From Hydrogenothermaceae bacterium (lineage in GTDB: Bacteria; Aquificota; Aquificia; Aquificales; Hydrogenothermaceae): a stretch of 57,839 nt of DNA. Numbering within the stretch: the stretch's first letter is position 1; every line of letters starts with the position of its first letter. Positions 1 to 57,763 of the stretch are shown here, one piece after another. A model generated the notes under the pieces. The model saw nothing but the letters and a program-made list of their open reading frames with translations, had not been told where the DNA came from and ran no database searches. A program made the translations under genes and the position numbers. Location: assembly GCA_015490675.1 (NCBI GenBank), contig WFXI01000320.1, positions 89,640 through 147,478 on the forward strand. The letters are read 5' to 3'.

Positions 1-312
1 TTTCTTTCCCGATCCGGGAAAAGAAAACTGGATTAACACCGATTCCTCCTTAACGACAACACGCCTAAGCGTGTTCTCATATATTATCGGATCTAAAACA
101 TATATTCTTAACTTCTCTTTAAATTCTTCCTTCTCTTCTTCTGAATATGAATCAGAAAAATTCCAGCTTATTCCAAACTCTTGCAATTTTTCTGCAAGAG
201 TTTTTTCTTCATCAAGTAATTCCTTCTCAACTTTATCAAAATCAGGCTCGAAAACGTAAAACGAGTCCTCTAAATCTTGCTGAAATGTGGATAATACAAA
301 CGCCTCTTGCAT
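1..312 (-). CDS. hypothetical protein, open at the window edge (MQEAFVLSTFQQDLEDSFYVFEPDFDKVEKELL...)
   Basis: Minus-strand frame open from ATG (revcomp of 310-312) to base 1, preceded by strong SD TTCGAAGGAGGATAGCC; absent from the ORF track because no stop lies inside the window. Confidence 0.6.
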   Translation of the reverse strand, partial: MQEAFVLSTFQQDLEDSFYVFEPDFDKVEKELLDEEKTLAEKLQEFGISWNFSDSYSEEEKEEFKEKLRIYVLDPIIYENTLRRVVVKEESVLIQFSFPGSGKK

Positions 313-318
313 GGCTAT

Positions 319-481
319 CCTCCTTCGAATTTTTTTATTTCGCCCTCAACCTGCACCCATTATTGTTGAAAACCGGTCTTAAATACCTACCTTCGACTGA
401 AAAGCCTGAGACCGGCGGGTGCAGGTCACTTAGGGACTTCTAAGCTTTAGAAGTTACCCTCAGGCGTCAATCGAAGGAGGT
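319..481 (-). promoter_or_regulatory. structured 5' leader with alternative pairings, including an anti-SD
   Basis: 319-328 CCTCCTTCGA pairs perfectly with 471-480 TCGAAGGAGG; alternative 385-396 with 471-481; 404-410/459-465; 436-443/447-454; 350-358/417-425; 373-379/409-415. Confidence 0.55.
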
Positions 482-738: not shown

Positions 739-960
739 GTAAAACCTTACTTTATCCTCCTTTTCACCGCCTTGTAACCTGCACAAAGCTAACCTATTCA
801 ATTTCCAAGTATCCAAATAAGACAAATTTTGCCTTATAGAAAATAACATTAAAATAAAATTTTTCATCTGTCAACATATCATAGCATATTTATATTTAAT
901 TAAAATTTGCCTTCTAAAAATCGAATACCGACGATAGTTTATTAGTTTTCTTGCCAAATT

Positions 961-53094: not shown

Positions 53095-54906
53095 TTATGC
53101 TTTAGAGAAATATTTAGCTTTAATAAGCTTAATTTTCCCTTTTATTTTAATATCTTTTTCTAAACTATTTAACAAAGATTCAACCTTTTTTATCAGAGGG
53201 TTAAAAATACTATCTCTTACTGATTTCTCTGATTTTATAAATCTTAGAATAAGCATTGTAAATTCTTCATCTTCTAATAAACAATCTCTAATAAAAGACT
53301 CTTTTATATCATTTAAATTTAAAGCTTTAGAACGAAGAATAGATCCTTCTAGTATACCTTTAATTAAGTCTTTAACAGAATCACAAGAAGACAACATATT
53401 ATTCTTAAATTCTTGCTCTAAATTTTCTAATTTTTCTTTTAAAGATGGAATTTCTCTTAAAATGTCCATTCTTTCGTACATATATTTATATAGCAAAATC
53501 TGGAACTCTTCCTTATCTTTTTTATAAAGTTCATTTAGATAACTAACTAAAATCTCAGAAAAACATTCTAGGTATGTGTCTTTATTTTGTTGGTCTACCT
53601 CTGATAATATATATCTTAATATGGAATATAAATCATCTAAATAAAAAATTTCTAGAATTTTACTTTTATGTTTATTAAATAATTTCCGTAAGTCCTTGAT
53701 AAAATCCTTATCCTCATATTTAAAATTGTATAAATACTTATTAATTTTATTTTCAAATTCTTCTTTTATATTTTGATTTCTTCTAATATTTAATTCATTT
53801 TCTAAAGCATCTTTAATGTTAGCTATTAACTCTGGAGTTAATAATTCTTTTTCTATAAAAGGAAAAAATGCTTTAATGTATTTAGGAATAAAAAGATCAA
53901 GTTGAGAAAAGTGACTAAAATAATGAAAAATTTCTTCTATTTCTTTTACTTGAGAATCTTTCTCTTCAGTTTCATTATTATTTAAGTTTTTAGAAAATAA
54001 ATATCCTAAATAATAACCTCTCTTTTCTAATACATCTTGGGGAAGGATATTTTTGACTTTCTTCAAATATACAAAAGGAATTAGATATTTAATTGCTTCT
54101 TGTAATAAATCTCTATACTTCTCTAAATTTTCTATACCTCTTATACTTTGACATAATCTATCTAGAACAGAAAAGATTTGTATCATTATCCTGATATTAT
54201 TTATATTATAGAAAACAAGAAAATCTTTTATATCTTTATAATTGTTGAAACAAAAATCCTTAAATTTTTCTTCTAATATAGAAAAATTCTCTTCTACATT
54301 TGGATCATAGGTAAATTCAAAATCTACGATTTTTTCTTTATATTTCTCATAAATTTCCTTATCTTTATCTTTCAATTCTTCTTCGTTAAAAATAAGTATT
54401 ATTCTACATTTTTTTTCTTCCTTTAAGACACTGAAGAAACCTAATAAAACATCTAAATTTAGATTATCTCCAATTCTCTCTAAGTCATCAAAGATGATTA
54501 TTACATCTTTAAAATCTTTCTTTTCAAAAAAGGAAATTCCTAAATTTATTAAAGTCCCAAAAGTACCCGAGTTAAAAATAAAATCGTTATCTTTATCTCT
54601 AATGCCAAAATTGAATTTAAGCCCTTCTATTTTATCTTTGATAGATTTTATAAATTTTGATGATTTGTAAAGATTTACTATTATTTCTTTCTCTATATCA
54701 TATATTGAAACCTTATTGAATAAAGAAATATAAGCGTAATTATCCTTATATTTTCTATCTTTTTTAAATTCTTCAACAAAACTTTTTATAAAATAAGTTT
54801 TCCCAATACCCCATTTCCCTTTTATTACACATAAAAATCCATCTTCGTTGTAATTTTTAAGAATAGTTTCTAAATTTTCTTTTAGAATTTCTTTTTTGGT
54901 AGACAT
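53095..54906 (-). CDS. KAP-type P-loop NTPase
   Basis: FLCVIKGKWGIGKTYFIKSFVEEF; VIIIFDDLERIGDNLNLDVLLGFFSVLKEEKKCRIILIFNEEEL. Confidence 0.8.
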   Translation of the reverse strand: MSTKKEILKENLETILKNYNEDGFLCVIKGKWGIGKTYFIKSFVEEFKKDRKYKDNYAYISLFNKVSIYDIEKEIIVNLYKSSKFIKSIKDKIEGLKFNFGIRDKDNDFIFNSGTFGTLINLGISFFEKKDFKDVIIIFDDLERIGDNLNLDVLLGFFSVLKEEKKCRIILIFNEEELKDKDKEIYEKYKEKIVDFEFTYDPNVEENFSILEEKFKDFCFNNYKDIKDFLVFYNINNIRIMIQIFSVLDRLCQSIRGIENLEKYRDLLQEAIKYLIPFVYLKKVKNILPQDVLEKRGYYLGYLFSKNLNNNETEEKDSQVKEIEEIFHYFSHFSQLDLFIPKYIKAFFPFIEKELLTPELIANIKDALENELNIRRNQNIKEEFENKINKYLYNFKYEDKDFIKDLRKLFNKHKSKILEIFYLDDLYSILRYILSEVDQQNKDTYLECFSEILVSYLNELYKKDKEEFQILLYKYMYERMDILREIPSLKEKLENLEQEFKNNMLSSCDSVKDLIKGILEGSILRSKALNLNDIKESFIRDCLLEDEEFTMLILRFIKSEKSVRDSIFNPLIKKVESLLNSLEKDIKIKGKIKLIKAKYFSKA

Positions 54907-54955: not shown

Positions 54956-57763
54956 TTAATTAGATATAAATTCCATTATATATTCCTTTCTATTATTAAA
55001 TGCAATTTTAATTTTATTATCATCATCACTTTTCAATATAGAGAGAAACTTGATTAATTTATTTTTGTCGTCTAAATATTCTAAAGCAAATTCTTTTAAT
55101 TTATCTAAATACTTATTTTTTATATCTTCTATGTCATCTAAAAGATTTTGATTTAGATTTGCATTGAATTTAAAACTTACCATATTGCCACCAAATATAA
55201 TATGGATCCCTATATTTTCTTTATGTTTTTCACTAAGGTATCTATAAATATACCCAATAAGATCTAATTTTACTAAATGAAGGAAAGTTTTTACTCTATA
55301 TTCTCTTAAGTTTATATTTTTTTCAGAATTATCTAAAATGTCTAGAATAAATCTTTTTCTAGTAAAGTTCCAATTAATTTTACCTTCTAAAAACTCATTA
55401 AAATTTGCTTTCCATGATTTAAGACTAATAACCTCATCCTTTTTCTTGTCGTTATAATAAATAAGGACATCTCCAATATTAAACCAAAAAAATTCTTCAT
55501 CTTTAGATAATTTACTTAAATATTTTTCCTTTACATGTGTATTTCCTAAAGTGATAAGACCAATATAAGCAGTTCTCTTACCTATGTGTGGGATTTCCTG
55601 TTTCCTTGTTATTTCTAATAAAGTCTTAATATATTGATTATCTTTCTTTTCATTTTTAAAATTTGAGTTATGAAATAATAATCTAGATAAAAAATAACCA
55701 GCCCAATTGAATTGATATAGGAAATTTTCAATATTATAATCCCTGTTGTCAATAATTGTTTTTAAAAAGTTATTTAAATTGTCAGCAACCTTAAACACTA
55801 ACTCTTTATCATAGTATTCAAAAAAGTTTAAAACAAATCTTGTAATATCATATCTATAATAATAGCTTAGTATTTTAAAATCTATATCTTCAAAGTCTAA
55901 AGATAATTCTCTAATTAAAGATTCTGCAATAAAAAACTCCATAAAAGATTCGTGAATAAACTTATCTATTCTTTTCCTTGATATTTGTAAAATAGATTTT
56001 AACTCGTTTGATACAAGAAACTCTTCAAAAACATTATCATAACTATTCAAAAATTTATCATACTCGGTCCCTAAAAATTTATTATGTTTAAGAAAATCAT
56101 AAAAATATATTTCATCATTTTCTAAAGAAAATAACTCGTATAATCTATCTTCTAACTTTATTGATAAATTTAAATTTTTATCTAATATTTCAACAAGATT
56201 TTCGTCACTGGTACCCATCTGTTTATTATACAAAATCCATGAAAAAAACATAGCACTATCACTAAAAATCTTATATAAATACTCTAAGCTATTATTAGTT
56301 CTAGAAAAAATAGAACTTTCTTTAGCAGATTCTCTTTCTAGCCACGTTATAAAAAACAATCTATATAACAAAAATTTATTTTTTGAAATTTCCTCAATAT
56401 TTTGGATATCTTTTCCATAAATATAACTAAATAGAAACAATATAGCTAACAGAGGATTGTTTATATTTATAGAAATTCTATTTACTTCTTTTTCTGAAAT
56501 GCCTTTAGAATATAACTTTTTCAGTCTAATATTTATTGCATGTATTAATTCCATAATTTGTTCTTGTTTCCATTTTTTTATTTCAAATACTGCATCACAG
56601 AATGAAAAATTTTTTTCACTATAAATATTCTCTAAATAGTAATTTGTTCTTGAAGAAAGAATATAAGGAAAATAATCATATTTCTTTTCTTTTAATCCTC
56701 CTCTTTTTACATTTTGATAAGCTTCATCTAAAGAATCTAATATAAGAAATATATTGAGGGATTTATCTAAATTGTTAAGGCGCTTTTTTTGATTTTCATC
56801 TTCTCCATATTTTAGGTAAATACCTCCGTCATTATCTAATAATACTACTGGATATGTACCATTACTTGTATCTTTATTTATGAATTTATTCAAAATTAAT
56901 ACTAGAAAATCCTTATAACTTTTAATATCTTTTTTAAAAAGTAAATCTATATCCTTAAGTTCAAAAAATAAAGGTATAAAATTAGTCTTACCACTTCTAT
57001 AAAAATGTAAAATTTCATAAAATAAGTGAGTTAAAAACGTAGTCTTACCTATGCCACTTTCACCTACTATAAGATAAGAAAAATTTTTGCAATCTTGTAA
57101 GTTATTTTTAACCATATCTACTAATTCATTTGATGAAGTAACACTTATATCTGAAGATGATAATATATTTTTTACTTCTATATTTAAATAATCTGGATAA
57201 ACTATATCAACTTGAAAGGGCCAATCTCTATTTAAGTCAAGAAGACTCTGGATTACATTTATATTTTTTATGTTCCTTATGGAGTCTATAATAAGAAACT
57301 CTTTTAATTCTTCTAAAAATTCTTCTTGAGAAAGATTTTTATTCGAAAAATATAATAAAAAATCTTTTGTTGAATAAAGAAAGTATATATCCCCTTTTTC
57401 TAAGAAGTGATTAACTTTAATATAATCCTTTTGATTTGCAACAATTTCCTGTGAAGTTAATTGTATAATGTCCTGAGTGATTTTTAAAAGTTTCTCTATA
57501 TCGTACTTATCCAAATATATTTCATAACTTCTAGAAATTTCATTAAATAATGTATAAAACAAGATTAAAAATTCTTCGTTACCAATAAACTTTTTTAATA
57601 TTAGAAGTTCTTCCTCTTTATTAAAATTCAAAAAAGGACTTATTTTTATATATTTTGTTCTTATTATATTAATTACATCTTTTAATATATCTTCCATATG
57701 TATCTTATTAAGATTTAAATTACTTAAATGGTCTAAAAAGAATAGTAGGATTTCATCTTTCAT
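54956..57763 (-). CDS. NACHT/STAND-type NTPase, 935 aa
   Basis: SYLIVGESGIGKTTFLTHLFYEIL; LNIFLILDSLDEAYQN; PYILSSRTNYYL. Confidence 0.8.
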   Translation of the reverse strand: MKDEILLFFLDHLSNLNLNKIHMEDILKDVINIIRTKYIKISPFLNFNKEEELLILKKFIGNEEFLILFYTLFNEISRSYEIYLDKYDIEKLLKITQDIIQLTSQEIVANQKDYIKVNHFLEKGDIYFLYSTKDFLLYFSNKNLSQEEFLEELKEFLIIDSIRNIKNINVIQSLLDLNRDWPFQVDIVYPDYLNIEVKNILSSSDISVTSSNELVDMVKNNLQDCKNFSYLIVGESGIGKTTFLTHLFYEILHFYRSGKTNFIPLFFELKDIDLLFKKDIKSYKDFLVLILNKFINKDTSNGTYPVVLLDNDGGIYLKYGEDENQKKRLNNLDKSLNIFLILDSLDEAYQNVKRGGLKEKKYDYFPYILSSRTNYYLENIYSEKNFSFCDAVFEIKKWKQEQIMELIHAINIRLKKLYSKGISEKEVNRISININNPLLAILFLFSYIYGKDIQNIEEISKNKFLLYRLFFITWLERESAKESSIFSRTNNSLEYLYKIFSDSAMFFSWILYNKQMGTSDENLVEILDKNLNLSIKLEDRLYELFSLENDEIYFYDFLKHNKFLGTEYDKFLNSYDNVFEEFLVSNELKSILQISRKRIDKFIHESFMEFFIAESLIRELSLDFEDIDFKILSYYYRYDITRFVLNFFEYYDKELVFKVADNLNNFLKTIIDNRDYNIENFLYQFNWAGYFLSRLLFHNSNFKNEKKDNQYIKTLLEITRKQEIPHIGKRTAYIGLITLGNTHVKEKYLSKLSKDEEFFWFNIGDVLIYYNDKKKDEVISLKSWKANFNEFLEGKINWNFTRKRFILDILDNSEKNINLREYRVKTFLHLVKLDLIGYIYRYLSEKHKENIGIHIIFGGNMVSFKFNANLNQNLLDDIEDIKNKYLDKLKEFALEYLDDKNKLIKFLSILKSDDDNKIKIAFNNRKEYIMEFISN

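Follow-up and report, generated by a model that had tools for sequence, protein, structure and literature searches.

Results

The operon and its plasmid setting

The window, the whole stretch of 57,839 nucleotides that was analysed, comprises bases 89,640-147,478 of a 147,478-base contig (C320). Because TraC, TraH, TraU, TraF, TrbI and a TraD-like coupling protein are encoded on it, this contig represents an F-type conjugative plasmid of 147 kb. At the start of the window lies the beginning of a gene for a 297-aa protein, which an earlier note on this DNA had equated with the open reading frame at 1..312; that frame does hold the gene start under the leader studied here, and makes up the first third of the gene (Table 1). 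ORFs of 61 and 50 aa follow downstream, giving a three-gene operon that is flanked on each side by an initiator gene, one Rep3 and one RPA/TrfA-like. Tandem repeats of TTTCCTATTTAGGACGATA at 1260-1470 of the window precede the RPA/TrfA-like initiator at 1654 and form a probable iteron origin, while the second, Rep3-type initiator is found at L002:6531-8063. The intergenic stretch between the last gene and rep3 (L002:8064-8300) is strongly structured, with GC-rich hairpins, and is possibly another RNA. Furthermore, inverted copies of GTAAGG(T/C)TTTACTTTTTTATTTTT flank the operon (735-751 of the window and L002:8275-8300), which could be terminators or element ends. Elsewhere in the window, two large NTPase-like genes on the minus strand, one matching the PADLOC candidate defence family PDC-S49 (53095-54906, E 3e-32) and one with a weak mads_8 match (54956-57763, E 2e-4), form a possible defence island.

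A homologue of the 297-aa protein, about 55% identical, is encoded on a 163,841-base (164-kb) plasmid contig from another genus of the family (G026:C2), and dozens of backbone genes are common to both plasmids. The homologous operon has five genes, of 293, 96, 33, 61 and 54 aa, and directly upstream of it lies an IS607-like pair of a resolvase and a TnpB-like gene (L014:10876-13097). Among 136 genomes of the phylum, the operon is known from these two, with three further matches at noise level, and the viral, genome, plasmid and phage collections held no relatives of the 297-aa protein. Protein-family searches of the operon proteins returned no fitting family; weak matches to FkbH_N, NADH subunit C and ZorA lay far under the cut-off and were dropped. 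The 50-aa ORF, a hydrophobic peptide present in G000 only, likewise has no family match.

Table 1. Features of the first leader, its gene and the region upstream (window coordinates)
Feature	Position	Strand	Sequence	Remark
297-aa gene, first 104 codons	1..312	minus		Whole CDS L002:9059-9952:-
Strand c, Shine-Dalgarno (SD) segment of the 297-aa gene	319..328	minus	TCGAAGGAGG	Perfect 10-bp helix P1 with 480-471
P3 3' strand	348..358	minus	GGGTGCAGGTT	From sequence and fold; pairs with 427-417
P4 3' strand	373..380	minus		From sequence and fold
Strand b, alternative partner of a	385..408	minus	CAGGC..CAGTCGAAGGTAGGT	From duplex energy; earliest in prefix series
Segment of b	396-385	minus	TCGAAGGTAGGT	Present in sequence
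P4 5' strand	409..416	minus		Pairs with 373-380; strand b looped out in OFF fold
P3 5' strand	417..427	minus	GACCTGCACCC, motif GTGACCTGC	Motif found again in most leaders
Hairpin P2 region	428..462	minus	ACTTCTAA/TTAGAAGT and flanking pairs	In MFE, centroid and forced a:b fold
Strand a, anti-Shine-Dalgarno strand	461..480	minus	CCTCCTTCGATTGACGCCTG	Common to both folds; own-partner test
Segment of a	480-471	minus	CCTCCTTCGA	Present in sequence
Conserved 5' block	774..784	minus	GTGCAGGTTAC	Kept in both loci; complementary to P3 5' strand
Possible promoter	846..874	minus	TTGACA-N17-TAATGT	By sequence reading; homologue has TTGACA-N18-TATATT

Two exclusive folds of the first leader

Strand a of the leader of the 297-aa gene has two alternative partners, the internal strand b and the SD strand c. 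All pairings that the earlier note had proposed here are present in the sequence, correct to the base, although the 12-nt partner it had given for 480-471 is only part of the real a:b pairing, which is longer and joins 480-461 with 408-385. As bare duplexes, a:b reaches -28.5 kcal/mol versus -18.6 for a:SD, and none of 300 shuffles gave an equally good a:b duplex. The minus-strand leader as a whole folds at -68.2 kcal/mol (z -4.7), a stability reached by 0 of 200 shuffles. Its MFE structure is an OFF fold, in which P1 closes a branched domain of P2, P3 and P4 and the SD is hidden. The a:b helix crosses both P3 and P4, and therefore the two folds are mutually exclusive. The 9-bp (358-350/425-417) and 7-bp (379-373/415-409) pairings had been described as conflicting with the a:b fold, which is true, and both nest inside a:SD. 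Hairpin P2, on the other hand, occurs in both folds.

Eight leaders on a common plan

A leader of this kind precedes every gene of both operons, three on this plasmid (A1-A3, A1 being the leader of Table 1) and five on the homologue (B1-B5). Their common plan consists of a GCCTCC-type strand a, hairpin P2, usually a GACCTGC strand (P3), strand b, a returning arm and the SD, with 130-168 nt between strand a and the start codon. The P3 motif GACCTGC/GCAGG is found with small variations in six of the eight, A3 and B5 being the two that lack it.

When the a strands were assigned to the SDs of all eight leaders, the true assignment ranked first of 40,320, and for a against the internal region only two of the 40,320 assignments, the true one included, scored as well. 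Evolution has therefore maintained both of the exclusive pairings through changes in sequence. The same own-partner test on the arm halves gave 17/40,320; tested as single leaders, A3 and B5 have an a:b pairing no better than shuffled sequence. The covariation that the earlier note had proposed looking for is seen between the orthologous leaders A2 and B2, in which 31 of 31 pairs are kept and six carry changes on both sides (0-1 when the partner was slid). This alignment was built manually from the structure, a procedure that is biased towards pair retention. A covariance model built from A2 and B2 alone detects B3, absent from the model, over its full length (E 4.7e-6), and found no convincing copies elsewhere among the 136 genomes. 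A DNA search with the leader in 60 relatives returned low-complexity matches only, and a loose motif search for ACCTGC..GCAGG was uninformative; a MAFFT alignment of the raw sequences of six leaders put the helices out of register and was discarded. The comparative sample consists of the two known operons.

Folding order and access to the SD

Folding of progressively longer prefixes at 37 and 70 °C gives equilibrium estimates, which approximate kinetics only crudely. In each of the eight leaders a:b appears once b has been made and lasts until the returning arm or the SD is reached, after which a:c takes over. For A1, the predicted SD opening is 0.00 when folded freely, 0.75 with a:b forced and 0.74 with a masked. 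With the first 14 nt of a masked, the predicted SD opening rises to 0.61-0.95 at 37 °C in 8/8 leaders. Forcing a:b at the same temperature yields 0.70 in A2, and 0.21, 0.18 and 0.26 in B1, B4 and B5, and opens the SD more at 70 °C than at 37 °C. By prediction, A1 behaves as expected of an SD-sequestering switch, the SD being paired in the stable fold and freed in the alternative one; across the eight leaders, holding a on b frees the SD wholly or only in part. The SD of B4 is only half hidden even in its stable fold, and is half open at all temperatures.

An RNA thermometer was considered and rejected, since six of the eight leaders keep the SD largely closed at 85 °C (opening below 0.25); B3 reaches 0.31 at this temperature. 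Mean opening of the A1 SD moves from 0.00 at 37 °C to just 0.04 at 85 °C, and most other leaders behave alike.

Upstream of leader 1, the conserved 5' block (GTGCAGGTYAC) forms 11 pairs with the P3 strand of that leader in short prefixes, and 10 in the homologue. In these models the block may delay the closing of P3, a conjecture that concerns leader 1 only.

Stop codons and possible translational coupling

In A3, B3, B4 and B5, the start of strand a is separated from the stop codon before it by 12, 12, 3 and 6 nt, respectively, and a ribosome terminating there would sit over a and thereby expose the next SD. Such an arrangement resembles the RNA-unfolding model of translational coupling, in which the ribosome of the upstream gene removes the structure hiding the next SD (PMC12548453). 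In A2 and B2 the distance is 94 and 95 nt, and this spacer is strongly conserved and folded, its structures including a hairpin that spans the stop codon. No gene precedes leader 1. Coupling leaves leaders 1 and 2 without a direct explanation. Between the plasmids, the last part of the 297-aa gene and the spacer (L002:8960-9110 and L014:9170-9310) are almost identical, a level of conservation far above that of the rest.

The coding regions are folded as well

Compared with synonymous shuffles preserving the protein and its codon usage, folding z-scores are -7.3 for the 297-aa gene and -7.8 for the 293-aa gene, whereas seven control segments (genes) of the same plasmid range from +0.6 to -1.9. 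The small ORFs are mostly folded too (z -2.3 to -5.2), the 50-aa ORF excepted. Comparing the two long genes, 39 pairs occur at the same aligned positions, versus at most 15 in 288 shifted comparisons; five of the 39 carry changes on both sides and the rest are mostly unchanged. RNAalifold of this CDS pair gave a compensatory count of 21 versus 24.6 in shuffles, which is not above chance, and the case for CDS structure accordingly uses energy and shared positions only. In an unbiased scan of both plasmids, the top five 1-kb bins of each by degree of structure fall in this locus. On both plasmids nearly all of the operon mRNA, its coding parts too, has a predicted fold far stronger than chance would give, so that the structured element is larger than the single leader originally claimed.

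Coding regions of cellular mRNAs are generally thought to be weakly folded, and heavily folded messengers are otherwise familiar from RNA phages and plasmid-addiction systems. Here, synonymous codons have apparently been chosen to fold nearly the entire messenger.

Discussion

A proposed kinetic, ribosome-coupled switch

Taken together, the predictions support the earlier claim of a translational switch with two exclusive folds: a stable a:c pairing would hide the SD, and both pairings are evolutionarily maintained, as borne out by eight leaders and by the compensatory changes of A2/B2. The reading we prefer, with a probability of roughly 0.55, is that the operon of this F-type conjugative plasmid yields a single, highly structured polycistronic mRNA carrying three two-state translational switches, of which A1 is the first, and that these are under kinetic, ribosome-coupled control. 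During RNA synthesis strand a would at first be held by b, leaving the newly made SD briefly open, until refolding to P3, P4 and a:c closes it. For later genes, a ribosome ending at the preceding stop would sit on a and thereby re-open the next site. The genes would as a result be translated in sequence and the mature, untranslated mRNA would be silent, with its folded coding regions keeping it compact, inert and long-lived. A broader picture, which we offer tentatively and rate as doubtful, is that the operon transcript acts as a globally folded mRNA machine, in which the 5' block, the serial bistable leaders and the structured CDSs work as a timed cascade; it would be translated only while nascent or gene by gene, and would otherwise lie inert, perhaps to be stored or passed on.

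Could a protein be what fixes one of the two folds? The note had envisaged control by a ligand or a protein, and a protein ligand is still conceivable: the 297-aa protein, or another plasmid protein, would bind the P3 motif GACCTGC/GCAGG. The presence of this motif in six of the eight leaders, all of which sit in the protein's own operon, would suit such autoregulation. However, A3 and B5 would have to do without the motif, the family searches detected no RNA-binding family in the 297-aa protein, and its AlphaFold prediction is poor (pLDDT 57) and too poor for a structure search. We consider autoregulation unlikely on this balance.

Transcription attenuation, which we regard as rather improbable as a general explanation, would make a:b, with a U-run behind b, an intrinsic terminator before each gene, a factor or ribosome on a then allowing read-through. 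Long U-runs do follow b in A2, B1 and B2, and the A locus has more terminator-like sites than expected (14 versus 2.9). Nevertheless, a clear U-run directly after the stem is confined to these three copies: A1 (AUUUAAG) and B5 (CCCGCUUUG) have none. The U-run also doubles as the 5' side of the P4 apical stem, a whole hairpin lies inside the a:b loop, and a pure terminator would have no need of the a:SD pairing seen in 8/8 leaders. Attenuation is therefore possible for A2, B1 and B2, and not for A1.

A metabolite riboswitch, to which the competing folds around the SD might point, is very improbable. As many as five copies occur in a single operon, one ahead of each gene, and no conserved unpaired core runs through the eight leaders, so that small-molecule control as first envisaged finds no support. 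The note had recognised no known riboswitch consensus, and in agreement with this no Rfam family reached its gathering score in the window, the best sub-threshold match having an E of about 5. Ribosome traffic combined with folding order fits the anatomy of these leaders better than a ligand does.

That hairpins were selected in the DNA, to serve the transfer or replication of single-stranded plasmid, and not for regulation through RNA, deserves hardly any credence: although the plasmid is of the F-type conjugative kind with replication genes nearby, and the antisense strand folds well too, in front of every gene it is the SD on which the closing helix ends, folding of both strands (as the note had advised) gives a steadier sense strand in 8/8 leaders with 52 versus 10 G.U pairs, imperfect stems of at least 8 pairs hold six G.T mismatches versus no A.C, and the three one-sided changes between A2 and B2 all lead to G.U on the sense strand. 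Given this strand asymmetry, RNA rather than DNA is the likely target of selection.

Comparison with known systems

If the kinetic, ribosome-coupled switch exists as proposed, one may ask whether control by folding kinetics, as known from hok and RNA phages, is also available to an operon carried on DNA, and for what purpose a conjugative plasmid would need it. The timed cascade, if true, would be a DNA-plasmid counterpart of the genome strategy of single-stranded RNA phages. Like translational riboswitches, these leaders would set SD access by two exclusive folds, but they lack a conserved ligand core and any Rfam match, and are used in tandem within one operon. The coupled pairs f1 VII/IX, MS2 coat/lysis and rpmI-rplT are similar in that a terminating ribosome would unfold the structure over the next SD (PMC12548453), whereas here no simple hairpin is involved: the ribosome would sit on strand a of a long bistable leader, and would do so serially along the operon.

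In MS2, the closing strand lies upstream of the SD and the coding RNA is highly structured, as in the operons described here. We know of no sequence similarity between its leader and those described here. In the MS2 maturation leader, a transient structure permits translation before the inhibitory cloverleaf forms (PMC6733600), and the likeness extends to the SD hidden in a cloverleaf-like fold and would extend to the transient open state. The differences are that we are dealing with the mRNA of a DNA plasmid, that the searches found no RNA replicase or coat family among the operon proteins, as an RNA phage genome would have, and that the device is repeated before every gene. The hok and aapA mRNAs, on their part, pass from a metastable early pairing to an inert state in which a stable fold conceals the SD (PMC6733600). 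The type I toxin mRNAs of hok/Sok and aapA/IsoA would share with ours this order of events and, for hok, share the plasmid setting; unlike theirs, which is at the 3' end, the inhibitory partner is upstream here, and several genes have such leaders, the first of these genes encoding 297 aa and not being toxin-like. A hok-like system pairs a small membrane toxin with an antisense RNA, and the one small hydrophobic product noted here is the 50-aa peptide, in G000 only. Since the family searches gave no replicase, coat or toxin-pair gene, and the inhibitory strand is placed otherwise, the leaders probably belong to neither type. By analogy, the MS2 maturation leader and the hok and aapA mRNAs are nonetheless the nearest parallels, and the switch proposed here would work as they do.
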